25,118 nt of DNA from Oscillospiraceae bacterium (GTDB lineage Bacteria > Bacillota > Clostridia > Oscillospirales > Oscillospiraceae): positions 1 through 25,118 of the forward strand of contig JAFTGG010000161.1 of assembly GCA_017458025.1 (NCBI GenBank). Reading direction: 5' to 3'. Shown here in pieces: positions 9,034 through 19,902 of the stretch; the first letter of the stretch is position 1, and each line of letters opens with the position of its first letter. Position numbers and translations under genes: made by a program. The notes beneath the pieces were generated by a model. It searched no databases, had not been told where the DNA came from, and worked only from the letters and a program-made list of their open reading frames with translations.

Positions 9034-9459
9034 ATGAAAGGAAAAGAATTTATCCGCGTCGTCAAGTTTACGCTGTTTTCCGCGAGCGCGGGGCTCATTC
9101 AGTTGGGCGCTTTCGCGCTGCTCAACGAGCTGCTGCACCTGCCCTATTGGCAGAGCTATGTGGCGGCTCTGGTGCTCTCCGTGCTGTGGAACTTTACGCT
9201 CAACCGCAAGTTCACCTTCAAGTCCGCCGCCAACGTGCCGGTCGCGATGCTCAAGGTCGCGTGCTACTACGCGGTGTTCACGCCGCTGAGCGGCTGGCTG
9301 GAGCATTTCTACACGATGACGCTCGGCTGGAACGAGTACATAGCGACCATTCTCAACATGCTGCTGAATTTCGTGACGGAATTTCTCTACCAGCGGTTTT
9401 TCGTGTTCGGCAAGAACATCGACACCAACGAAACGCAAAAAGAAGAGGCGCTCAAATGA
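9034..9459 (+). CDS. GtrA family membrane protein
   Basis: A 141-residue small membrane protein with four predicted helices (~9-33, 39-58, 69-88, 105-123). It has the usual GtrA features: an early FxxxSASAGLIQLGAFALLN segment, LSVLWNFTLNRKFTF at the end of helix two, and the late NFVTEFLYQRFFVF. GtrA proteins are thought to flip lipid-linked sugars or to assist glycosyltransferases in cell-surface glycosylation. It starts 3 bp after the PAP2 fusion and ends the four-gene operon. Its stop codon lies inside the loop of the downstream hairpin. The function in this organism is inferred only from family and context. Confidence 0.9.
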   Translation: MKGKEFIRVVKFTLFSASAGLIQLGAFALLNELLHLPYWQSYVAALVLSVLWNFTLNRKFTFKSAANVPVAMLKVACYYAVFTPLSGWLEHFYTMTLGWNEYIATILNMLLNFVTEFLYQRFFVFGKNIDTNETQKEEALK

Positions 9460-9480
9460 GCGCCTGTTCTTTTTGCGTTT
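9431..9480. terminator. Large bidirectional terminator between GtrA and fructokinase genes
   Basis: AAACGCAAAAAGAA-G-AGGCGCTC pairs with GAGCGCCT-G-TTCTTTTTGCGTTT across a four-base loop, with a single G-G mismatch. It ends GtrA transcription on the plus strand and can stop read-through from the fructokinase operon on the minus strand. The GtrA stop codon sits in it. Confidence 0.9.
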
Positions 9481-9482
9481 AT

Positions 9483-9546
9483 ACTAGGCCTTGTTTGAAA
9501 AATGCCGATATACCCAAACGGTGGGCCTTTTCAGGCAAGGCCTAGT
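9483..9546. repeat. Dispersed palindromic repeat, short copy
   Basis: ACTAGGCCTTGTTTGAAAA at the left end and TTTTCAGGCAAGGCCTAGT at the right end form near-perfect terminal inverted repeats with two mismatches. The 20-mer from 9485 to 9504 is identical to 24974-24993, and the interior aligns loosely (CCAAACGGTGGGC versus CCAACGGCGAGGC). It sits directly between the bidirectional terminator and the fructokinase stop codon. It may be a miniature mobile or REP-like element. Confidence 0.7.
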
Positions 9547-9552
9547 TCCGCA

Positions 9553-10515
9553 TTACATTTGGTTGAGCACCCGCTCGACGTCCTCCGGCTCCGGCATTGA
9601 TTTGATCGCGCCGCGCTTCGTCGTCACAAGGTACGCCGCCGCGTTCGCGAAACGCAGCATCTCGTGCAGCTGCGGCTCCGTCAGGACGTCGACGCCGTGG
9701 TCCAGAACATAGTGCAGCACCGAGGCGCAGAACGTGTCGCCCGCGCCGGTCGTCTCGATCACGCCGCCGAGGCGGCAGCCTGCTTCAAACGCGCGGAAAT
9801 CGCCATAGTACGAATAGCTGCCCTCCGCGCCGGCCGTGATGTTCAGCAGCTTGATGTTCGGGTACTGCTCCTGCAGCATCGCCGCGCCCTTGTCGAAGTC
9901 GGTCGTGCCGCACATGAACTCGACCTCGTTGTCCGAGATCTTGAGCACGTCGCACTGCGCGAGGCCCCACGCGATCTGCTCCCTCGCCGCGCCGTCGCTG
10001 TCCCACAGCGGCGGGCGGAGGTTCGGATCATAGGAGATCAGCGCGCCGGCTTCCCTGGCGAGCGAGATCGCCTCGCGCGTCGCCGTGCGTACCGGCTCGT
10101 CGGTCAGAGACAGCGAGCCGAAGTGGAAGATGCGGCAGTTCCGCAGCGCGTCCGCGTCCAGCTCGTCCGCCGACAGGTTAATATCCGCGCCCGGCTTGCG
10201 GTAGAAGCTGAAATCGCGGTCGCCGTTCTCAAACGTGTGCACGACGGCAAGCGTCGTGTGCACCGCTTTGTCGCGCCGGAGGCCGCGGCTGTCGATGCCC
10301 GCGCCGCGGAGCGTCTCCTCAAGGACATCGCCGAAGCCGTCCGCGCCGACCTTGCCGAGGAACACGCAGCTATGCCCCAGCTTACGCAGCATCGCCAGCA
10401 CGTTCGCCGGCGCGCCGCCGGGATTTGCCTCAAACAGGAGGTTCCCCTGTTCGCTCCTGCCGTTCTGCGTAAAGTCGATCAGCAGCTCGCCGAGAGCCGC
10501 GACGTCGTATGCCAT
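9553..10515 (-). CDS. Fructokinase (PfkB family carbohydrate kinase)
   Basis: A 320-residue PfkB-fold kinase of normal length. It has the N-terminal signature around NPGGAPANVLAMLRKLG (31-47), GKVGADGFGD (54-63) and the C-terminal signature ETTGAGDTFCASVL (254-267) with the GAGD anion hole and catalytic D260. It most likely phosphorylates fructose with ATP to fructose 6-phosphate. The fructose assignment rests on the sequence style (GELLIDF at 9-15) and on its place at the end of the sucrose PTS operon; ribokinase-like alternatives are less likely. AAAGGAG lies nine bases before the start, and the gap from the ptsI stop is 16 bp. It would use fructose released by the amylosucrase gene at 15547-17418. 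Confidence 0.9.
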   Translation of the reverse strand: MAYDVAALGELLIDFTQNGRSEQGNLLFEANPGGAPANVLAMLRKLGHSCVFLGKVGADGFGDVLEETLRGAGIDSRGLRRDKAVHTTLAVVHTFENGDRDFSFYRKPGADINLSADELDADALRNCRIFHFGSLSLTDEPVRTATREAISLAREAGALISYDPNLRPPLWDSDGAAREQIAWGLAQCDVLKISDNEVEFMCGTTDFDKGAAMLQEQYPNIKLLNITAGAEGSYSYYGDFRAFEAGCRLGGVIETTGAGDTFCASVLHYVLDHGVDVLTEPQLHEMLRFANAAAYLVTTKRGAIKSMPEPEDVERVLNQM

Positions 10516-10531
10516 AGCGATGCTCCTTTGG

Positions 10532-12208
10532 TTAAATCGAAGTTTGGTCGCTCGCGAGATCGCCGAGCAGCTTGTCGCGCACCTGCGCGACGTTCGTCTC
10601 GCGCACCTTCTGGCGTAGCGGCAGCACCGCGCGCGGAGAGACCGACAGCTCGTCGATGCCGATGGAGAGGAACGTCTCGGTCAGTTGCAGGTCCGCGCCG
10701 AGCTCGCCGCAGATGCCGACCCAGATGCCGTTCTTATGCGCGTTGTCCGCGACCATTTTCAGCAGGCGCAGCACCGCCGGATGATGCGGATTGAAGAATC
10801 GGCCGAGGTCGTTGTTCTGGCGGTCGCAGGCAAGCGTGTACTGCGTCAGATCGTTCGTGCCGCAGGAGAAGAAGTCGACCTCTTTGGCGAGGCGGTCGCT
10901 CATGATCGCCGCCGCGGGCGTTTCGATCATGATGCCGATCTGCACGTCGTTCGAGTACGCGACGCCCTCGGCGTCAAGCTCCTTTTTGACCTGCTCGCAC
11001 ATCTTCTTGGCTTCCTTGACCTCCCAAACGCTCGCGACCATCGGGAACATGATGCACAGCTTGCCGAACGCCGACGCGCGATAGAGCGCGCGCAGTTGGG
11101 TGCGGAAGATCTCCGGACGGTTGAGGCAGATGCGCAGCGCGCGGTTGCCCATCGCCGGATTCTCCTCCTTCGGGAGGTTGAAGTACTCGATCTGCTTATC
11201 CGCGCCGATGTCCAGCGTGCGGATCACGACTTCCTTGCCGTCCATGTCCGAGAGCACCTTCTTGTATGCCTCGAACTGATAGTCCTCGCTCGGGAAATCG
11301 TCGCAGCCGAGATACAGGAACTCGCTGCGGAACAGGCCGATGCCGCCGCCGTCGTTCTTGAGCACGGTGGATACGTCCTCGGGATTGCCGATGTTGCAAT
11401 AGATGCGGATGCTGTGGCCGTCCTTCGTGACGTTTTCCTTTCCCTTGAGCTGGTCGAGCATCTCCTGAAGCTTGAGCTGCTCCTCGCGCTTCTTCATCAG
11501 ATGCGCGCGGGTGTCCGCGTCGGGCTCGAATACCGCCGTACCCGTGCCGCCGTCGACGATGACCTCGCGGCCCGCGTATTCTTTTTTCAGTTGGTCGCCC
11601 ACGCCGATAATGGCGGGAATCCCCATTGTGCGCGCGAGGATCGCCGTATGGCTGGAGCCGGAGCCGCCCTCGGTGATGAAGCCCAGAATCTTGCTCTTGT
11701 CGAGCTGCACGGTCTCGCTCGGCGCGAGGTCGTCGGACGCGAGGATCACGGGCACGTCGCTGTCGATGCCGCCCTGCGCCGCGCCGGACAGAATACCGAT
11801 GATGCGGTTGGAGACGTCCTTAACGTCCGCCGCGCGCGCCTGCATATAGGCGTCGTCCATCGAGGCGAACATCTCGGCAAACTGTTCGCGTACGTCGGCG
11901 ATGACCGCCTCGGCGTTCGTACCGCCCTTGATGGCCTCCTCAATGGCCTCCTCGTAGTCGAGGTCCTCCGCCATCATCTGATGCGTCTCAAACAGCAGCG
12001 CCGCCTCGTCGCCCGCCTCCGCGCGCGCCTTTTCGGCGAGCGCGCCGAGCTGGTCGATCGCTTTCGCCTGCGCGTCCTTGAAGCGCTTCCACTCCGCCTC
12101 GACGTCGGCGACGGTGGTGCGCGTAATGTCAGCTTTCGCGCGCTGGTAGAAATAGAGCGGGCCGGCGGCGACGCCGGTGGACACGCCCTTGCCCTGGATC
12201 GTGATCAT
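10532..12208 (-). CDS. ptsI: PTS Enzyme I (phosphoenolpyruvate-protein phosphotransferase)
   Basis: A 558-residue Enzyme I, which moves phosphate from phosphoenolpyruvate to HPr in the cytosol. The N-terminal HPr-binding region is residues ~1-150. The phospho-histidine is H187 in GGSGSSHTAILAR (181-193), slightly different from the usual GGRTSH form. The PEP-binding barrel follows with GGGIGLFRSEFLYL, NPAMGNRALR, FFSCGTNDLTQYTLACDR and the catalytic cysteine in GICGELGAD. Length is close to the usual ~570. AAAGGA precedes the ATG. It follows ptsH after an 86-bp gap holding a strong hairpin. This may be the organism's general Enzyme I, although it is embedded in a sucrose block. Confidence 0.96.
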   Translation of the reverse strand: MITIQGKGVSTGVAAGPLYFYQRAKADITRTTVADVEAEWKRFKDAQAKAIDQLGALAEKARAEAGDEAALLFETHQMMAEDLDYEEAIEEAIKGGTNAEAVIADVREQFAEMFASMDDAYMQARAADVKDVSNRIIGILSGAAQGGIDSDVPVILASDDLAPSETVQLDKSKILGFITEGGSGSSHTAILARTMGIPAIIGVGDQLKKEYAGREVIVDGGTGTAVFEPDADTRAHLMKKREEQLKLQEMLDQLKGKENVTKDGHSIRIYCNIGNPEDVSTVLKNDGGGIGLFRSEFLYLGCDDFPSEDYQFEAYKKVLSDMDGKEVVIRTLDIGADKQIEYFNLPKEENPAMGNRALRICLNRPEIFRTQLRALYRASAFGKLCIMFPMVASVWEVKEAKKMCEQVKKELDAEGVAYSNDVQIGIMIETPAAAIMSDRLAKEVDFFSCGTNDLTQYTLACDRQNNDLGRFFNPHHPAVLRLLKMVADNAHKNGIWVGICGELGADLQLTETFLSIGIDELSVSPRAVLPLRQKVRETNVAQVRDKLLGDLASDQTSI

Positions 12209-12248
12209 GATCGTTGCTTCCTTTCCGATAAATTTTCAGGTGGCCATA

Positions 12249-12285
12249 ACAGAAAACGGCTGTCACACCGGCAGCCGTTTTCTGT
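12249..12285 (-). terminator. Intercistronic hairpin between ptsH and ptsI
   Basis: A perfect 14-bp stem (ACAGAAAACGGCTG with CAGCCGTTTTCTGT) and a nine-base loop lie in the ptsH-ptsI gap. On the minus strand the 3' arm contains TTTT but no long T run follows, so it may be a partial terminator or an mRNA-stabilising or processing hairpin that sets more HPr than Enzyme I. On the plus strand it is followed by five T, but no plus-strand gene feeds it. Confidence 0.6.
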
Positions 12286-12294
12286 TTTTGTCGG

Positions 12295-12555
12295 TTAGAA
12301 ATAGGTCTTGAAGAACTCCTCGATCTTCGCGGCGACGTCTTCCTCGTTTTCGCCCTCGATGCTGACGGTCACGGTGTCGCCCTGCTTGATGCCCATACCC
12401 ATGAGCGCCATGAGCTTGAGCGCGTTGACGCTTTTATCGCCCTTGGTGACAGTCACGGTGGTGCCGGCGTAATTCTTGATCTCCTTGACCAGAATGCCTG
12501 CGGGACGGGCGTGAATGCCGACAGGATCGGTGATGGTGTAGTCAAAGCTCTTCAT
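12295..12555 (-). CDS. ptsH: PTS phosphocarrier protein HPr
   Basis: An 86-residue HPr that carries phosphate from Enzyme I to EIIA. The active histidine is H15 in GIHARPAG (13-20). The region that normally contains regulatory Ser46 reads KSVNALKLMALMGMGI. Aligned to the Bacillus form KTVNLKSIMGVMSLGI, the serine position is lysine (K47 here). HPr kinase could therefore not make HPr(Ser-P) at the usual site. AAGGAGG lies nine bases upstream of the ATG. It sits between the EIIBCA gene and ptsI. Confidence 0.95.
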   Translation of the reverse strand: MKSFDYTITDPVGIHARPAGILVKEIKNYAGTTVTVTKGDKSVNALKLMALMGMGIKQGDTVTVSIEGENEEDVAAKIEEFFKTYF

Positions 12556-12582
12556 GTTGGTTTCCTCCTTGAAAGTTGAATT

Positions 12583-12610
12583 ATGATAATCGGTTGAGCC
12601 GGTATATCAA
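12583..12610 (-). promoter_or_regulatory. Possible internal promoter for ptsHI
   Basis: TTGATA and TATCAT with a 16-bp spacer lie in the 62-bp gap between the EIIBCA and HPr genes. This would allow ptsH-ptsI-fructokinase expression without the sucrose transporter. Confidence 0.45.
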
Positions 12611-12617
12611 CGCTTGC

Positions 12618-14504
12618 TTATTTCGCGCCGCACTCGACGCCGTCCAGATCGTCGGAGTTGGTGAGGAGCACGACCACGGTGTCAGGGTGGCCCGCGGCCT
12701 TGATCTTCGCGCGGTCAAAGGTCAGGAGCTTCTGCCCCGCCTTGACCTTGTCGCCTTCCTTGACGGCGGGCACGAAGCCGTCGCCGTTCATGCCGACCGT
12801 ATCCACGCCGACGTGGATCAGCACCTCCATGCCGTTCGACTCAAGGCCGACGGCGTGCTTGCTCTCCGCGACCGAGGTCACTTCGCCGTCGAACGGCGCG
12901 ACCACGACGCCCTCCTCGGGCTCGATACCGACGCCGTCGCCGAGGATACCGGCCGCAAAGGTCTCGTCGGGGATCTCCTCGCGGGCGATGACCTTGCCCT
13001 TCGTGGGCTGGAGCACCGCGCCCGCCGCGCAGCGGATCACGCTGGTCGCCGGAGCTTCGATGGCAGGCTCCGCCTTGGCGGGGGCCGCTTCCTGCTTTCC
13101 GCCCTCGGGGGCGTCTTCCTTCCAGATGACCCAGGTCAGCGCGAACGCGACGCCCGCGGCGATGACCATCTCAAGCAGATAGACGGGAATGTTGTTGATG
13201 GCGGGGATACCGGGGATACCGGTGACGCCGTACACGGTCGCGCCGAACGGCACGGTCGCGCCGTTCATGTCGGTGCCGTGCATCCAGGACGCGAACAGCG
13301 CGCCGACCGCGCCGCCCGCCATGCCGCAGACAAACGGCTTCATGAAACGGAAGTTAACGCCGAAGATCGCCGGCTCGGTGATACCGAGGGACGCCGAGAG
13401 CGACGCCGGCAGGGCGACGGACTTGGTCTTCTGGTTCTTGACCTTGAGCGCGACCGCAAGGCACGCGCCGAACTGCGCGATGTTCGCGGCGGTGGCGATG
13501 GGCATCCAGGTGTTGACGCCGGTGCTCGCGATCATGCCCGCCTCGATGACGTTGTACATGTGGTGCAGGCCCATGACGACGGTGACGGGATAGATCGCGC
13601 CCATGACGGCGGCGCCCGCGCCATGACCGATGGTAATGAGCGTACGCGCGCCCGCAAGCACCCAATTCTCAAACACGGAGAACACCGGCCCGATGATGGT
13701 GAAGGTGATGTAGGACGTGATGAGCACCGTGCACAGCGGGGTGACAAACAGGTCGATCATCTCCGGCACATGCTTATGCAGCCATTTTTCCACCGTCGAC
13801 ATCAACAGGACCGCCAAAATGACGGGTATGACGTGCCCCTGATAGCCGACCTGCTGGACCGGGAAGAAGAAAATGTTCCATGTCGGGATCGCTCCCTCGT
13901 AGCTGGCGACCGTCCACGCGTTGATGAGCGCGGGGTGCACCATCATCAGGCCGATGACCGCGCCGAGGAAGATGTTGCCGCCGAACACGCGCGCGGCGGA
14001 GATCGCCACGAGCACGGGCAGCAGCGCGAACGCGGTGTTCGCGACAAGGTCGAGGAACGAGAACCAATCGGTCGCGCCGAACGCGGGCGCGAACTTCGGG
14101 ATCGCCTCGACGATACCCATCATCAGGCCGGAAGCCACGATGGCGGGCAGGATCGGCACGAACACGTCGCCGGGGACCTTAAGGATACGTCTCCACAGCG
14201 GCGCCTGCGCGGCGGCCGCGGCCTTGACGTCGTCTTTGGTGGCGGCGGTCATGCCGGTGACGGCGAGGAACTCGTCGTAGACCTTGTTGACCGTGCCCGT
14301 GCCGATGATAAGCTGGAGCTGGCCGTTCGATTCAAACATGCCCTTGACGCCGTCGACGTTTTCAAGAGCCGCCTTGTCGAGCTTGCTGTTGTCCGCGATC
14401 ACGAGACGCAGACGCGTGGCGCAGTGCGCCGCGCTGACGATGTTCTCTCTCCCGCCCAGGTGGGAGTAGATCTCCTCAGCGCACTTACGGTAGTCCAATG
14501 CCAT
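12618..14504 (-). CDS. scrA: Sucrose-type PTS transporter EIIBCA
   Basis: A 628-residue three-domain permease that imports and phosphorylates sucrose at the membrane, giving cytosolic sucrose 6-phosphate. EIIB is residues ~1-90 with phospho-cysteine C28 in SAAHCATRLRL, a spelling typical of sucrose rather than trehalose permeases (THCVTRLR). EIIC is ~105-450, with FVPILPAIVASGLMMG and the sugar-site motif GITEPAIFGVN. An Ala/Pro/Glu-rich linker (~460-485) leads to a glucose-type EIIA, with phospho-histidine H564 in EVLIHVGVD. AAGGAG precedes the ATG. A consensus promoter and a 16-bp palindrome lie upstream. Sucrose is the best substrate guess; related beta-glucoside or trehalose use cannot be excluded. 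Confidence 0.92.
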   Translation of the reverse strand: MALDYRKCAEEIYSHLGGRENIVSAAHCATRLRLVIADNSKLDKAALENVDGVKGMFESNGQLQLIIGTGTVNKVYDEFLAVTGMTAATKDDVKAAAAAQAPLWRRILKVPGDVFVPILPAIVASGLMMGIVEAIPKFAPAFGATDWFSFLDLVANTAFALLPVLVAISAARVFGGNIFLGAVIGLMMVHPALINAWTVASYEGAIPTWNIFFFPVQQVGYQGHVIPVILAVLLMSTVEKWLHKHVPEMIDLFVTPLCTVLITSYITFTIIGPVFSVFENWVLAGARTLITIGHGAGAAVMGAIYPVTVVMGLHHMYNVIEAGMIASTGVNTWMPIATAANIAQFGACLAVALKVKNQKTKSVALPASLSASLGITEPAIFGVNFRFMKPFVCGMAGGAVGALFASWMHGTDMNGATVPFGATVYGVTGIPGIPAINNIPVYLLEMVIAAGVAFALTWVIWKEDAPEGGKQEAAPAKAEPAIEAPATSVIRCAAGAVLQPTKGKVIAREEIPDETFAAGILGDGVGIEPEEGVVVAPFDGEVTSVAESKHAVGLESNGMEVLIHVGVDTVGMNGDGFVPAVKEGDKVKAGQKLLTFDRAKIKAAGHPDTVVVLLTNSDDLDGVECGAK

Positions 14505-14558
14505 AAGTGATTTTCTCCTTACACTTCATTTTGCTGCCCTTTCGGACAACCACCCTGT

Positions 14559-14587
14559 ATTATAACGGAAAGTTCTGCCAATGTAAA
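14559..14587 (-). promoter_or_regulatory. Promoter of the EIIBCA operon
   Basis: TTTACA and a perfect TATAAT with a 17-bp spacer on the minus strand. The leader of about 50 bases contains a short hairpin with a GAAA tetraloop (14533-14550) before the AAGGAG ribosome site. Confidence 0.85.
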
Positions 14588-14590
14588 CAA

Positions 14591-14606
14591 AAACTTATGC
14601 AAGTTT
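14591..14606. promoter_or_regulatory. Palindromic operator candidate upstream of the EIIBCA promoter
   Basis: AAACTT-ATGC-AAGTTT is a perfect 6+6 palindrome ending three bases upstream of the -35 box. A second CAAGTTTC half lies about 20 bp further upstream (near 14622). The position suits an activator or a LacI-type regulator. No such regulator gene is in the window. Confidence 0.5.
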
Positions 14607-14616
14607 CGCGTCATTT

Positions 14617-15441
14617 TTAGACAAGTTTCAAGGCTTCAAACGCCCGCGCCAATCCGTCCTCCCCGACGGCGCCGCAAACCAGACCGCTGACGCGCTTGAG
14701 CGCCTCGCTGCCGTTCGCCATGCAGACGCCGAGGCCCACGGTCTCGATCATCTCAAGGTCGTTCATGCTGTCGCCGAAGCCGACCGTGTCGGACAGCGGG
14801 ACGCCCAGCGCCTCCGCGATGCGGCGGACGCCGCGGCCCTTGTCGAATTTGCGGTTGATCATCTCACCGTTGACGCAGCCCTTTGAAAACGCGTCCTGCA
14901 CAACGAAGTTGAACTCCGCCTCCGCCGCGCGGCGCACGGGCGCAAGCTGCTCCTCCCGTTCGCAGAGGAACAGCACCTTGTAGACGGGCCTGCCGTCGTA
15001 CTCGCGCATAGGAAGAATGTGCAGCTCCTCCTCCAGCGCGCGCCGCCATCGCGCCAGCTCGCTGCTGCCGCCGTTGACGCGGCCCATAAACTCCACCGTG
15101 CCCTCGTCACAGTAGCTTTTCTCCCACGCCTCTATGGTGCGGTAGATGCCGTTTTCCCGCAAAAGCGACAGGATACGCTCGCTCTGCTCCGCGGTCATCG
15201 GGCAGTCGTAGAGCACCTTGTCCCCGCAGACGACGTAGCCGCCCGCGCTGGCAATATAGCCGTCGAAGCCGTATCCGAGCAGCGGCGAGAGCATCGCGTA
15301 ATTGCGTCCCGAGCAGAGAAACACCTTATTGCCCGCCGCGCGGGCACGGCGGATCGCGTCGACGGCGCTGCGCGGCGGCTCCGTTGCGCCAGGCTCCGTC
15401 AGCGTGCCGTCGACGTCGAGAAAAATCAGTTTTTGACTCAT
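14617..15441 (-). CDS. Cof-type HAD hydrolase (sugar-phosphate phosphatase candidate)
   Basis: A 274-residue HAD phosphatase of the Cof/YidA class. Motif I is FLDVDGT with nucleophile D9 and acid D11, motif II is the serine of LCSGRN (S44), motif III is K201 in NRKFDKGRG, and motif IV is GFGDSMND (222-228, with D224 and D228). The cap domain spans ~85-190. It should remove phosphate from a small phosphorylated metabolite in the cytosol. AAGGAG precedes the start. It lies between the amylosucrase gene and the sucrose PTS genes, so sucrose 6-phosphate is an attractive substrate, but Cof enzymes are broad and this is not shown by sequence. Confidence 0.92.
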   Translation of the reverse strand: MSQKLIFLDVDGTLTEPGATEPPRSAVDAIRRARAAGNKVFLCSGRNYAMLSPLLGYGFDGYIASAGGYVVCGDKVLYDCPMTAEQSERILSLLRENGIYRTIEAWEKSYCDEGTVEFMGRVNGGSSELARWRRALEEELHILPMREYDGRPVYKVLFLCEREEQLAPVRRAAEAEFNFVVQDAFSKGCVNGEMINRKFDKGRGVRRIAEALGVPLSDTVGFGDSMNDLEMIETVGLGVCMANGSEALKRVSGLVCGAVGEDGLARAFEALKLV

Positions 15442-15470
15442 TCCGATATCTCCTTACCGGCGTCAAGCAT

Positions 15471-15499
15471 CGCTCCGGCCAGCCTTGACGGCCGGAGCG
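15471..15499. repeat. Hairpin between the amylosucrase and HAD genes
   Basis: CGCTCCGGCC and GGCCGGAGCG form a perfect 10-bp stem with a nine-base loop. No T run follows on either strand, so it is not a classical terminator. It lies in the 105-bp gap just before the HAD ribosome site and may stabilise or process a joint mRNA. Confidence 0.6.
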
Positions 15500-15546
15500 C
15501 CCGCCATATTCGCGGCTGCCGCGCAGGCGGTGGGCAAAACGGCAGT

Positions 15547-17418
15547 TTAGCCGCTGTGCGGTCGATCTGCGTCGAAGGCGCGCGTCAGCCACAAAAAACC
15601 GCCGGGCGGGATCGGCAGGGCGCCGTCTTCGCGGACCTTGCCCGCGAACAGGTCGGTCATCGGCGCGTCCTCGCCCGTCCAGACCACGCGCTCACAATAG
15701 TCGAAGTTGAAGTACGCCAACAGCTTCTCGCCGTCGCGGTAGCGTCCGATGCCGAGCACGCCGTCATAGCCGGTGTCGAGCAGCCAGACGTCCGCCTCGC
15801 CGTCGAACGCGCGATGCTCCGCGCGAAGCGTTTCGAGCCGCCGGATACCGCCGAACAGCCTGCCCTCGACGGTATCGGGATCGTGCCGCAGCGCGGCCTT
15901 GTCCCAATCGAGGTTCCCGCGATGCAGCCATCGGCTGTCGTCGCGGCGGAGCGGGTCGTCGTGGTAGCCGTAGTCGTTCTCCTGCCCGATCTCGTCGCCG
16001 CTGTAGAGCACGGGAATGCCGCTGAGCGTGAACATGTAGGCGTGGAGCATCAGGTCGTAGCGCAGCGCCCAATCGGTCTTATAGCCGTTCTTTTCATAGC
16101 GCGCGGACTCAAGCCCGCAGAGCGACGCCGTCGTGCCGCACAGCCGCGCGTCGCCGAGCGTCGGGTCGTCGTTGTACAGCTCGCCGCGGGCGGGGCTGCC
16201 CTCCCACTTGCCGGTGAGGTAGTCGTTGAGAAACTTTTTATGCGCGACCTCCTCGCCGCCATAGCCCTCAAGAAAGTCGTAGTCGAGGCCCCAGCCGATG
16301 TCGTCATGGCAGCGGAGGTAGTTGAGGAACGTATATTCCCCGGGGAGCGCGAAGACCTGTTCAAGCTGGTGGCGCAGCAGGCGCGTGTCCTTTGTCGCCA
16401 CGGTGTGCCAGGTGCTCGCCATCGTGGTCACGTTGTAGAGCAGGTGGCACTCCGGCTTTTCCACCGTGCCGAAGTACGGCACGACCTTGCTCGGCTCCAT
16501 GACGATCTCGCCGAGCAGCAGCGTGCCCGGGCAGACGATCTCGCACACCATGCGCATCATGCGCACGAGCGTATGCACCTGCGGCAGGTTGCGGCAGGTG
16601 GTGTCGAGCTCCTTCCAGATGTACGGCGTCGCGTCGAGGCGCACGATATCGACGCCCCGGTTGCAGAGGTAGAGCATGTTCTCCGTCATGTCGTTGAACA
16701 CGACGGGGTTCGCGTAATTGAGATCCCATTGGTAGGGATAGAACGTCGTCATGACGACCTTCCCCGCCTCCTCGCACCAGCTAAAATTGCCGGGCGCGGT
16801 GGTCGGGAACACCTGCGGGACGGTCTTTTCAAACTCGTTGGGCACATCCCAATTGTCATAGAAGAAAAACCTGTCCTGATACTCCTTTTCGCCCGCGCGG
16901 GCCCTGCGCGCCCACTCGTGATCCTCGCTCGTGTGGTTCATCACGAAATCAAGGCAGACGGCAATGCCGCGCTTATGGCAGTCCGCGGCGAGCGCTGCGA
17001 GGTCGTCCATCGTGCCGAGCTCGGGCTGTACGGTGCGGAAATCCGACACGGCGTATCCGCCGTCGCTGCGTCCCTCGGGCGATTCCAGCAGCGGCATCAG
17101 GTGCAGGTAGTTGACGCCGCAGTCCTCGACGTAATCGAGCTTTTTGCGCACGCCCTTAAGCGTCCCCGCGAACGCGGAGACGTACATCAGCATACCCACC
17201 AGCTCGCGCCGTTTGTACCACCGCGGGTCGGCAAGGCGCTCGCGGTCGAGCCGGCGCAGCGCCGCGGGACGCGCCGCGTACATGCGCGCAAGCATTCCGA
17301 CAAAGTATTCGTATGCCTTTTCGTCGCCGTGGTACAGCTCCATATAGAGCCACTTGAGCTCATCGGCATGACGCTCGTAACGCACGCGAAATTCTTTCAT
17401 ACGGCCGGTCTTCTCCAT
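15547..17418 (-). CDS. Amylosucrase-type GH13 glucanotransferase
   Basis: A 623-residue GH13 enzyme matching the amylosucrase pattern: it transfers glucose from sucrose to an alpha-glucan and releases fructose. Visible matches to Neisseria amylosucrase are an N-terminal helical domain, YLHLMPL (104-110), SDGGYAV (118-124), NHTSEDHEWA (161-170), TTFYPYQWDLNYANP (224-238), nucleophile D262 in IVRLDA, acid/base E304 in LLGEIV, HDDIGW (371-376) and DDSRWLHR (493-500). D119 and R496 correspond to the pair that closes the glucose pocket. The ATG at 17418 is chosen for GGGGGAG upstream and a promoter at 17452-17481. No signal peptide is seen. Sucrose hydrolase activity is the main alternative. Confidence 0.9.
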   Translation of the reverse strand: MEKTGRMKEFRVRYERHADELKWLYMELYHGDEKAYEYFVGMLARMYAARPAALRRLDRERLADPRWYKRRELVGMLMYVSAFAGTLKGVRKKLDYVEDCGVNYLHLMPLLESPEGRSDGGYAVSDFRTVQPELGTMDDLAALAADCHKRGIAVCLDFVMNHTSEDHEWARRARAGEKEYQDRFFFYDNWDVPNEFEKTVPQVFPTTAPGNFSWCEEAGKVVMTTFYPYQWDLNYANPVVFNDMTENMLYLCNRGVDIVRLDATPYIWKELDTTCRNLPQVHTLVRMMRMVCEIVCPGTLLLGEIVMEPSKVVPYFGTVEKPECHLLYNVTTMASTWHTVATKDTRLLRHQLEQVFALPGEYTFLNYLRCHDDIGWGLDYDFLEGYGGEEVAHKKFLNDYLTGKWEGSPARGELYNDDPTLGDARLCGTTASLCGLESARYEKNGYKTDWALRYDLMLHAYMFTLSGIPVLYSGDEIGQENDYGYHDDPLRRDDSRWLHRGNLDWDKAALRHDPDTVEGRLFGGIRRLETLRAEHRAFDGEADVWLLDTGYDGVLGIGRYRDGEKLLAYFNFDYCERVVWTGEDAPMTDLFAGKVREDGALPIPPGGFLWLTRAFDADRPHSG

Positions 17419-17451
17419 AGCCTTCTCCCCCAAAAGACGGATTGTGCCATC

Positions 17452-17481
17452 ATTATAAAGCGTACAACTCCCCCTTGTCAA
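17452..17481 (-). promoter_or_regulatory. Promoter of the amylosucrase gene
   Basis: TTGACA and TATAAT, both perfect, with an 18-bp spacer, lie 34 bp before the chosen start on the minus strand. Its -35 box overlaps the -35 box of the divergent promoter of the coiled-coil gene. Confidence 0.85.
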
Positions 17482-17503
17482 CGGCGCGGTTTTGTGCTAC
17501 CAT
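17475..17503 (+). promoter_or_regulatory. Divergent promoter of the DivIVA-like gene
   Basis: TTGTCA and TACCAT with a 17-bp spacer lie 38 bp before the ATG. The -35 hexamer shares bases with the amylosucrase -35 (17476-17481), so polymerase can occupy only one at a time. Confidence 0.55.
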
Positions 17504-17541
17504 GCGCATAGACTGCCAAATTGTACGGAGATGTGGGATAT

Positions 17542-18258
17542 ATGGAGAACAACTCTTTTAAAAGCTCGCTTTTCGGCGGTTTTCGCCGCAAAGACGTCAT
17601 CGCTTATATCGAAAAAAGCGCCAATGCGTCGAACGAGCGCATCGCCGCGCTGGAGCAGGACGGCGACAGGCTCACGCAGGAAAACGGCGCGCTGCGCGAC
17701 GACCTCGCGTCCGTCAGCGGCGCGCGCGACCGCCTGTCCGAGGCGCTGCACGACAACTTCGACAAGCAGGAGGAGCTGCGCGCCGCGCTGGACGCCGCGA
17801 ATGACGAGTTGGAGACGCTGCGCGCAAAGCTCGCGGCGCTGGTCGGCGAGCGCGACGCGCTGCGCGCCGAGGTCGAAGCGCTGCGCCCGCAGGTCGAGGA
17901 GTTCCGGTCCGTCAAGGATAAGCTCTCCGAGCTGGAGCTTGCGGGGGACCTGCGTGCCGACGACTACGAAAAAGAGATCTATGGCCGCGCCGACTACAAC
18001 TAAGCCGACGTCCGCAAGCGCGCGGACGAGTATGCGTCCGAGATCCGCGAGCGCGCCGACGAGTACGAGAGCGAGACCCGCGCGAAGGTCGGCGAGCTGC
18101 TGGGCGGCTGCCGCTCGCAGGTCGACCTCGTGCTCGCGACGCTGGGCGAGACCTGCGCCAACGTGACGGCGGAGCTGCAAAAGAGCACCGAGACGGTCTC
18201 CCGCCTGCCCGACGCGTTCCACACGCTGCGGCACGACCTCGACGATTTGGGCAAATAA
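17542..18258 (+). pseudogene. DivIVA-like coiled-coil protein interrupted by an in-frame TAA
   Basis: The reading frame from the ATG at 17542 starts with FKSSLFGGFRRKDVIAYIEK, the N-terminal pattern of DivIVA/GpsB-type cell-division proteins, and continues as a long coiled coil. TAA at 18001-18003 ends it after 153 residues. The same frame then stays open for 84 codons to TAA at 18256. The stop falls inside a run of 11-residue repeats (RADYN*ADVRK, RADEYASEIRE, RADEYESETRA), so both sides clearly belonged to one protein of about 238 residues. Either the gene is truncated, the base is a sequence error, or the stop is read through. The role, if active, would be organising division or polar growth at the membrane. 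Confidence 0.8.
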
Positions 18259-18352: not shown

Positions 18353-18360
18353 GATACTGT

Positions 18361-18433
18361 TATCGAATAAAAAGCTTACACTTTTTATCCGATAGATGCC
18401 GCCGGCGGCGGCATACAGTTGCTAACGCAACTG
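18361..18433 (+). promoter_or_regulatory. Leader with three consecutive hairpins
   Basis: Three inverted repeats follow each other with gaps of only one base. TATCGAATAAAAAG pairs with CTTTTTATCCGATA (one mismatch, 18361-18394), ATGCCGCC pairs with GGCGGCAT (18396-18414), and CAGTTGC pairs with GCAACTG (18416-18433). A further ACGGCT/AGCCGT pair brackets the stretch before the ribosome site. None ends in a T run. They lie in the 5' untranslated region of the MerR-RDD mRNA and may regulate translation, or mark a small repeat element. Confidence 0.7.
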
Positions 18434-18492
18434 ACGGCTCAAAGGAAATCTTTTTATATGAGTTGAGTATGAAGCCGTAAGGAGGCATGTAT

Positions 18493-19902
18493 ATGACCAT
18501 CAAGGAAATCGAAGAACGCTCCGGCATGACCCGCGCCAACGTCCGCTTCTACGAATCGCAAGGGCTGCTCAGCCCCGAACGGAAAGAGAACGGCTACCGC
18601 GCATATTCGGACGGCGATCTCGACACGCTGCTGCGTATCCGCCTGCTGCGCTCGCTGGGCGTGTCTCTGGACGACATTCGCGCGCTGCAAACGGGCGACG
18701 CGGAGCTGCCCGACACGCTGCGGCGGCAGTTGGACGCGCTGCTCGCGGAGCAAAAAACGGTCGAGCGCTCGCGCGAGGTCTGCCGCGAGATGCTCGACGA
18801 CGGCGCGCAGTACGCGACGCTGGACGCGCCGCGGTATCTCGACGCGCTGTCGCGGGAGACGCCCGCCGCCGTGCCGGAGGGCGACGCCGTGCCAAAGGTG
18901 CGTGCGCCGTGGCGGCGGTATTTCGCCCGCTCGCTGGACTTCGCGCTTTGCGAAATGCTCTGGTATATCCTTTTGCTGCTGATCAACTTCAATCCCGCGC
19001 AGAGCAGGGGCATGCGGCTGCTCAATCTGCTGATGAGCGCTCTGATCCAGCTCGCGCTGGAGCCGCTGTTCCTCTCCAGGCTCGGCACAACGCCGGGTAA
19101 GTGGCTGCTGGGCCTCGGCGTGACCGACGCCGACGGCGGGCGGCTCAGCTATCGCGACGCGTTCCGGCGCTCGGTGGACGTGCTGGTGTACGGCTACGGC
19201 TTCCATATCCCGCTCTACTCTCTCCTGCGCCTGTACCGGAACTACGCCGCCTGCGACAGGGGCGAGACGCTCCCGTGGGAGAGCGGCAGCGTGCTGGCGC
19301 TCAAGGACGAAGCGCCGTGGCGGACGTGGGCGTACGTCGGCGCGCACATCGCGCGTTTTGCCGTTTTGATGCTGGCGCTGCTGCTGACGCTACTGCCGCA
19401 TCACCGGGGCGACATCACCGTCGCGGAGTTCTGCGAGAACTACAACGATCTGGTGGATTTCCTCGACCGCGAGCAGTTTGGCCGGCTCGACGAGACCGGA
19501 AGCTGGGTGCATCGCCGGACGGGCGGCGTCGAGCTGTTCATTGACTCCTCCGTCACGCCCGCGCTGACCTTTACCGAGGAGGGCGGATATATGACCGGCG
19601 TCGGCTTTGAGGAGTCGCTGGTCAACAGCGAATATGTCCCGTCGTCCTGCAATGCGGAGATGCAGTTCCTGCTGATGACCTTTGCCGCCTCGCAGAAGGG
19701 CGCGATTTGGCGTCTGGGCGAGATTTACTCGGCGGTACAGGACATTGCGGACAACGCCTACCGCAGCTTCGACGTCGCCGCCTGCGGCGTCCGCGCCGTC
19801 TGTGACGTGTCGTATCGGGGCTACAAGGACTTCGGCGGGCTCTCTCTGTTCCCCATCGACGAGCCGACGATCTTCTCTATGGGCTTTTCGTTGAGCAAAT
19901 AA
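18493..19902 (+). CDS. Membrane-anchored MerR-RDD transcriptional regulator
   Basis: A 469-residue fusion. Residues 1-~70 are a MerR winged helix (MTIKEIEERSGMTRANVRFY, then GYRAYSDGDLDTL), followed by a coiled-coil dimer helix (~75-120). Residues ~140-265 form an RDD-type membrane domain (RRYFARSLDFALCEMLWY, GTTPGKWLLGLGV). A further helix (~279-297) leads to a C-terminal part of about 170 residues that should lie outside the cell. The ATG at 18493 is preferred because AAGGAGG at 18479-18485 is seven bases away; an ATG at 18487 is too close. The design suggests sensing of an envelope signal by a DNA-binding protein held in the membrane. The ligand and targets beyond its own promoter are unknown. 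Confidence 0.88.
   Translation: MTIKEIEERSGMTRANVRFYESQGLLSPERKENGYRAYSDGDLDTLLRIRLLRSLGVSLDDIRALQTGDAELPDTLRRQLDALLAEQKTVERSREVCREMLDDGAQYATLDAPRYLDALSRETPAAVPEGDAVPKVRAPWRRYFARSLDFALCEMLWYILLLLINFNPAQSRGMRLLNLLMSALIQLALEPLFLSRLGTTPGKWLLGLGVTDADGGRLSYRDAFRRSVDVLVYGYGFHIPLYSLLRLYRNYAACDRGETLPWESGSVLALKDEAPWRTWAYVGAHIARFAVLMLALLLTLLPHHRGDITVAEFCENYNDLVDFLDREQFGRLDETGSWVHRRTGGVELFIDSSVTPALTFTEEGGYMTGVGFEESLVNSEYVPSSCNAEMQFLLMTFAASQKGAIWRLGEIYSAVQDIADNAYRSFDVAACGVRAVCDVSYRGYKDFGGLSLFPIDEPTIFSMGFSLSK

Follow-up and report, generated by a model that had tools for sequence, protein, structure and literature searches.

Gene content of the block

We analysed a 25,118-nucleotide stretch of Oscillospiraceae DNA (the window). 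It makes up the complete contig C9 of a genome of 2.01 Mb in 282 contigs, estimated as 89% complete. The closest relatives among the matches listed are metagenome-assembled genomes (MAGs) labelled Clostridia, Oscillospiraceae or Ruminococcaceae, many of them, to judge by title, from rumen samples. The window contains a block of six genes that combines a sugar phosphotransferase system (PTS) with a GH13 enzyme and a HAD phosphatase. An initial annotation of this DNA had read the six genes in one direction, and all lie where it placed them, on the minus strand. Judged from sequence comparison, they probably specify a PTS-fed sucrose route that is independent of sucrose-6-phosphate hydrolase, in which the EII would import the sugar, the HAD enzyme would dephosphorylate it and the GH13 enzyme would act on free sucrose.

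15547-17418, minus strand: GH13 amylosucrase-type glucosyltransferase, 623 aa, ATG start at 17418
14617-15441, minus strand: Cof-type HAD-IIB phosphatase, candidate sucrose-6-phosphate phosphatase
12618-14504, minus strand: PTS EIIBCA, probably of the sucrose type (PF00367, PF02378, PF00358)
12295-12555, minus strand: HPr (PF00381), His15 motif present, Lys at the Ser46 position
10532-12208, minus strand: PTS Enzyme I (EI; TIGR01417, 604.6 bits, cut-off 341.7)
9553-10515, minus strand: PfkB-family sugar kinase, probable fructokinase (PF00294, 2.3e-52; best NCBIfam match NF006957, below its cut-off)

Genes were called by a codon-usage score, used in place of longest-ORF calling, which produced many shadow open reading frames. 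The GH13 enzyme presumably belongs to subfamily 4 (GH13_4), a label that we take from its amylosucrase matches. No open reading frame of the block is GH32, as the initial annotation had held; for the genome the statement fails, with two GH32 genes on contig C160. The kinase had been called a fructokinase, and its best match, NF006957, agrees with that name at 195 bits, short of the cut-off of 450.

Association of the HAD gene with GH13-linked EII genes

We read the surroundings of 86 GH13 loci, comprising the window, 80 named loci (the best 80 of a longer list) and five others in same-family genomes. At least 5 kb of downstream sequence is available for 58 loci; of these, 29 have both HAD and EII, 25 have neither, three have only the HAD and one only the EII, a co-occurrence whose Fisher p of 6e-12 is descriptive, the loci being related. 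The initial annotation had proposed surveying the gene order across relatives, and the order GH13-HAD-EII proved recurrent: of 35 loci, 10 have GH13-HAD-EII-HPr-EI-FRK and 7 have GH13-HAD-EII-HPr-EI, the two commonest orders. The GH13 and HAD genes overlap or are separated by less than 70 bp in 24 of these 35, and at several loci a LacI-type regulator gene lies between them.

At genome level, we considered 47 genomes with a GH13 locus that showed no HAD, no EII or neither. Both genes are present somewhere in nine of them, only an EII in three (besides which G489 has a 172-residue EII piece), only a HAD in six and neither in 29, again an association (Fisher p 5e-4, or 1.4e-3 counting the G489 piece). 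Genomes G456, G467 and G470 were counted as linked, their GH13 and EII genes lying on two contigs that end between them. At loci L162, L255, L257 and L261 the HAD gene adjoins EIIBCA although GH13 is on another contig. As many of the genomes are MAGs whose completeness is unknown, gene absences are soft.

A search for EII genes made independently of GH13 covered 393 genomes of the class and gave 66 places, of which 40 were mapped, five (two in the window's own genome, three in G036) were read separately and 21 were left out. The partner within 4 kb of the 40 mapped EIIs is GH32 in 17 cases, GH1 in 15, TreC in four, GH13_4 in one and none in three. Counting a HAD as near when it scores at least 100 bits within 4 kb, only one of the 40 has it: L197, which is also the only one with GH13_4, in a rearranged order. 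L198, a close EII, has HPr, EI and GH32 and no HAD.

Across all 94 distinct EIIs, many of them recruited through GH13, the HAD is near 33 of the 34 with GH13_4 (the exception is L122) and near none of the 22 linked to GH32 without GH13_4 or GH1, a swap against GH32. Two of the 33 carry GH32 as well (L097 and L123). It is likewise near 0 of 17 GH1-linked, 0 of 5 TreC-linked and 0 of 1 GH32-plus-GH1 EIIs; a distant HAD relative of 38-40 bits, under the 100-bit line, lies near two GH1-linked EIIs (L220 and L223). Fifteen EIIs have no such enzyme in reach, and seven of these have a HAD nearby, one being a pair on contig C272 with a different HAD.

Two other arrangements were seen at GH13 loci. In L103 (676-9146), GH13, EI, a GH36 alpha-galactosidase, GH32 and a kinase share one direction and no EIIBCA was seen; this may be a variant of the cluster for raffinose. 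In L087 (7184-11854), GH13 is oriented divergently to genes for HPr, EI and a stand-alone EIIA, and EIIBC is missing.

Sugar specificity of the EII

The initial annotation had called the EIIBCA a sucrose transporter. Because its EIIBC portion scores 520.4 bits against the sucrose model TIGR01996, under the cut-off of 559.3, this specificity rests on a tree of 86 EII rows made by a quick method, which places it among GH32-linked EIIs. The HAD-linked clade comprises 43 rows (branch value 100), namely 39 with HAD, three with GH32 and one with GH13 and no HAD. It is nested in a 51-row branch (branch value 98) of 39 HAD, 11 GH32 and one GH13-without-HAD row that contains no TreC or GH1 rows. Since the clade lies among GH32-linked EIIs and apart from the TreC- and GH1-linked ones, the EII is most likely of the sucrose type, and the imported sugar is probably sucrose; specificity for trehalose or beta-glucosides was rejected on the basis of the tree. 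The tree also suggests that the HAD-GH13 partnership took the place of GH32 about once and that some loci later went back to GH32 (L256; L258 and L259). A MAG labelled Spirochaetales (L081) falls deep inside the HAD-linked clade, which suggests either transfer between phyla or a mislabelled contig.

The window's genome has a second EIIBCA, on contig C272 (L128:997-5328), together with a LacI-type regulator and a Cof-type HAD 35% identical to that of the window. This EIIBCA scores over the cut-off of the beta-glucoside model TIGR01995, and the contig ends before any partner enzyme.

The GH13 enzyme and its glucose pocket

The best structural matches of the GH13 protein are amylosucrases in the PDB (7esh, 5e-146). 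Within window residues 2-513, it shares 201 of 500 aligned residues with Neisseria amylosucrase (NpAS; chain 5n7j). In the printed alignment, NpAS D144, Y147, H187, F250, R284 and D286 correspond to window D119, Y122, H162, F226, R260 and D262, and E328, H392, D393 and R509 to E304, H371, D372 and R496. We take Y147 and F250 to line the pocket and D393 to be the third catalytic residue. D144 and R509 form a salt bridge in NpAS, the -1 residues are D144, H187, R284, H392, D393 and R509, and D286 and E328 are catalytic, according to an excerpt of the NpAS literature (PMC6949346). The initial annotation had matched D119 and R496 to the pocket-closing pair of the Neisseria enzyme, and the two do align with D144 and R509.

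We aligned 87 GH13 sequences, of which 37 are PTS-linked, 39 have no HAD or EII seen nearby, eight have only the HAD and three only the EII. The catalytic residues D262, E304 and D372 are invariant in all 87, and the pocket-closing Arg is kept in 86, with His in one PTS-linked row. Apart from that His, none of the positions matched above varies among the 87, so that the -1 subsite is identical in the 37 PTS-linked and the 39 unlinked enzymes, and no alignment column separates the two groups, the best-separating one differing by 0.55. The unlinked group includes 14 loci with less than 5 kb downstream and three contig breaks (L057 and L059, with a HAD piece at the contig end, and L041, cut inside GH13). 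An EII was searched for in 37 genomes of this group, and 27 have no match at 1e-60; of the 25 unlinked loci with 5 kb or more downstream, 17 are in genomes with no match at that threshold. Because the pocket is the same with or without a PTS, the substrate is most likely free sucrose in both settings.

The HAD phosphatase and the phosphorelay

The window HAD has the HAD motifs and a Cof-type fold over its whole length, and hence differs from the endonuclease/exonuclease/phosphatase family of MapP, a maltose-6-phosphate phosphatase considered below. Against the sucrose-phosphate phosphatase (SPP) model TIGR01482 it scores 57.7, below the cut-off of 107.15, and it passes PF05116 (29.1 against 20.3) over 55 residues only. 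We rejected its assignment as a classical SPP of the S6PP family, the SPP structure 1s2o being a poor match (rank 40, TM 0.48 and 0.53). Despite this family mismatch the enzyme may work like an SPP. Among its 120 listed relatives, those that carry a name are called nothing more specific than ‘HAD family hydrolase’, ‘Cof-type’ or the like.

The genome has a second HPr on contig C171 and a second EI-type match (PF05524) on C165; the block therefore brings its own phosphorelay. The window HPr has Lys where the C171 HPr has the Ser46 equivalent, and in an alignment read by eye this Ser is missing in 27 of 28 HPrs of such loci, L123 having it.

GH32 and GH4 genes

Full sets of GH13, HAD and EII are present in 49 genomes. 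Fifteen of these have no GH32 match, ten of the 15 have no GH4 match either, and two of the 15 belong to strains, namely Clostridium vitabionis YH-T4B42 (L105) and Lachnospiraceae ACC2 (L114). In Sharpea porci (L093) GH32 is represented by a fragment only, and there are two GH4 matches. All three genomes tested among those with an EII and no HAD (G482, G485 and G495) have GH32; the difference in GH32 absence, 15 of 49 against 0 of 3, is not significant alone (Fisher p 0.55).

For the window's genome, a check for GH32 and GH4 genes had been proposed, and it gave a divided answer: no GH4 match was found, and two GH32 matches lie on C160. The initial annotation had named a co-regulated GH32 elsewhere as evidence that would count against the route. 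The genes exist, and no sign of shared regulation was seen, with no proper test of regulation made. Upstream of the C160 GH32, the 19-mer ATACTGTTATCGNATAAAA occurs as two facing copies that form a palindrome (L003:2272-2309). A shared operator was considered and rejected, as this palindrome was not found upstream of GH13; the genes may nonetheless be co-regulated. The C160 genes form a GH32-HAD-GH32 trio (L003:2342-6343), and the relatives of its HAD are the HADs that accompany GH32 beside EIIBCA in L256, L258 and L259.

Proposed route and alternatives

In the proposed route, EI, HPr and EIIBCA would import sucrose as sucrose 6-phosphate with the phosphate on glucose O6, as the EII family and tree suggest, and the Cof-type HAD, to judge from its gene association, would remove the phosphate in the cytoplasm. 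The GH13_4 enzyme has a closed glucose pocket, which should accommodate free and not 6-phosphorylated glucose. It would then move the glucosyl unit to an acceptor, most likely an alpha-1,4-glucan, and release fructose for phosphorylation by the PfkB kinase. A storage glucan as product is suggested by family membership. The phosphate from phosphoenolpyruvate (PEP) would be thrown away, and the energy of the glycosidic bond would pass into a glucan that could later be phosphorolysed to glucose-1-phosphate. By our own reckoning on textbook pathways the total cost equals that of the classical route, one PEP and one ATP per sucrose, with storage that needs no ADP-glucose. This sequence of HAD, GH13 and kinase steps was already outlined in the initial annotation and gains comparative support from the HAD counts (33 of 34 against 0 of 44 EIIs) and the constant pocket, while each reaction is still assigned from sequence and context.

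Several observations weigh against this route. The only two GH32 matches of the window's genome, both on C160, score 384.7 bits, over the ScrB cut-off of 356.4 (TIGR01322), and 355.4 bits, and a GH32 match is present in 34 of the 49 full-set genomes (fragments or weak matches only in G513 and G465). Because GH32 is present there, sucrose 6-phosphate could be hydrolysed in these genomes, and that of the window may run both routes. Nine genomes have GH13 and EII at separate places; the HAD adjoins EII in four of them (G021, G460, G465 and G478), stands by itself in three (G471, G477 and G486) and is missing from two (G482 and G485), both with GH32 beside EII; G449 has a lone HAD and no EII. Loci L050, L078 and L100 have GH13 and HAD with no EII match at 1e-60 genome-wide, and L122 and L111 have GH13 and EII with no HAD match at 1e-40 genome-wide, the L111 EII being cut by a contig end and not among the 94. 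From its placement where GH13 and EII are apart, the HAD tends to accompany EII without being tied to it. Nor are GH13 loci the only ones with a phosphatase gene near EII, because a different HAD (HADfru) occurs with GH32 beside EIIBCA in L256, L258 and L259, and the beta-glucoside-type EII of C272 has its own HAD and no known partner enzyme. The EII tree implies about one main HAD gain with few later changes, which leaves few independent events behind the association. Cof-type HADs are, moreover, often promiscuous.

Much of this would also fit a HAD that is a general sugar-phosphate phosphatase, serving overflow or detoxification and travelling with the PTS, while a GH32 elsewhere cleaves sucrose 6-phosphate and the GH13 enzyme uses other sucrose. 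We regard this explanation as unlikely. The two GH32 genes of the window's genome, one passing TIGR01322, the 34 genomes with GH32, the many genomes with GH13 and no PTS, the lone HAD in four genomes and HADfru at three GH32-EII loci speak in its favour. However, overflow should matter equally at the 22 GH32-linked EIIs without GH13_4, none of which has the HAD nearby; 15 of the 49 genomes lack GH32, and the GH13 and HAD genes often abut. Direct action of GH13 on sucrose 6-phosphate was the alternative offered in the initial annotation. Combined with a HAD that dephosphorylates a product, it fits the gene neighbourhood, taken by itself, too, yet it appears highly improbable. The equivalents of NpAS D144 and R509, and of Y147, H187, F250, R284, H392 and D393, are kept in PTS-linked as in unlinked enzymes (one His for R509), and without a column that separates the two groups we set aside an enzyme adapted to the phosphorylated sugar.

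A variant compatible with HAD dephosphorylation is that the GH13 enzyme is a sucrose hydrolase or phosphorylase, the purpose being energy and not storage. We consider this somewhat doubtful. Structures named sucrose hydrolase are also close (3cze, 1.1e-126), and in all 87 GH13 sequences Pro occupies the positions of NpAS 226 and I289, and Val that of I330, which may mean acceptor sites unlike those of NpAS. Against this, the best structural matches are amylosucrases, and the glycogen synthase family is present in 48 of 50 genomes examined, that of the window included, making glycogen metabolism available for a glucan.

Returning to the route through free sucrose, a wider reading can be put forward tentatively. 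The block might be a self-contained sucrose-to-glycogen module that Bacillota of gut and rumen share with MAGs labelled as spirochaetes. A dedicated HAD would deliberately discard the PTS phosphate, letting the energy of the sucrose bond enter a storage glucan directly. With an EI of its own and an HPr that lacks Ser46, the module would escape catabolite control based on HPr kinase, and the EII-HAD pair of C272 would make PTS plus HAD a more general means of delivering free disaccharides.

Related systems

The block would work like the enterococcal MalT-MapP bridge, with sucrose as the sugar. The MalT-MapP-MalP route was reportedly described by Mokhtari et al. in 2013. Enterococcus faecalis MapP frees maltose from maltose 6-phosphate and is encoded downstream of the maltose EII gene, according to an excerpt of PMC3737437, and the route also appears in a table row of PMC8950772. 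As described in these excerpts, the two systems share PTS import of a disaccharide phosphate, a phosphatase gene near the EII gene that frees the disaccharide, and a free-sugar enzyme next; the enterococcal one differs in its sugar, in MapP being an endonuclease/exonuclease/phosphatase family protein and not a HAD, and in using a GH65 maltose phosphorylase. The sucrose phosphate of Synechococcus carries its phosphate on fructose. Synechococcus PCC7002 has an spsA-sppA-frkA-amsA operon (excerpt of PMC11046441), in which, by contrast, sucrose phosphate is made inside the cell and not imported, the SPP belongs to another HAD subgroup and no PTS gene is named in that excerpt.

The inulin locus of Faecalibacterium prausnitzii is likewise a gut-bacterial sugar locus with both an amylosucrase and a fructokinase, and Escherichia coli lysates carrying its ams gene degraded sucrose (excerpt of PMC8894670). 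It differs in having ABC transporters and a GH32 beta-fructosidase, and the excerpt names no sucrose PTS or HAD (two proteins are hypothetical). The classical scrA-scrB-scrK system shares a homologous EII and a PfkB kinase, with EII-GH32 pairs in L200-L206, L210 and others; there GH32 cleaves sucrose 6-phosphate, and no such HAD lies within 4 kb. In Sharpea azabuensis, glycogen-synthesis genes and several PTSs are highly expressed, which in the excerpt of PMC5069950 is not this route. Among the titles and abstract openings of the open-licence literature searched we found no description of a PTS and a phosphatase supplying an amylosucrase; the block would bring MapP-like and amylosucrase ideas together in a sucrose PTS setting.

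Sugars taken up by a PTS are usually expected to be cleaved in phosphorylated form. If the route is correct, PTS uptake would be coupled to storage without ADP-glucose, sucrose use by genomes with a sucrose-type EII and no GH32 would be explained, and a HAD whose relatives bear only generic names would gain a function. The route also bears on the way in which bacteria of the rumen and gut may store sugar from a brief pulse.

Promoters and neighbouring features

Five promoter-like sites were observed on both strands of 9400-17700, against 1.6 expected. Two precede genes of the block:

17452-17481, minus strand: promoter-like site upstream of GH13, TTGACA-18-TATAAT, 12/12
14559-14587, minus strand: promoter-like site upstream of EIIBCA, in the HAD-EIIBCA gap, TTTACA-17-TATAAT, 11/12

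Both hexamers of the GH13 site are invariant in seven same-genus upstream regions, that of the window included. Sites upstream of both GH13 and EIIBCA suggest two transcripts, one for GH13-HAD and the other from EIIBCA onward. The GH13 start at 17418 is preferred over a TTG at 17481, because the latter falls inside the promoter. Just upstream of this promoter, TAxCACAAA (17491-17499, minus strand) is conserved in the same seven regions and is perhaps a regulator site.

Beyond the block, positions 18487-19902 encode a MerR-type DNA-binding domain fused to an RDD membrane domain. One copy of ATACTGTTATCGNATAAAA lies upstream of this gene at 18354-18372, and the repeat is perhaps a small mobile one.

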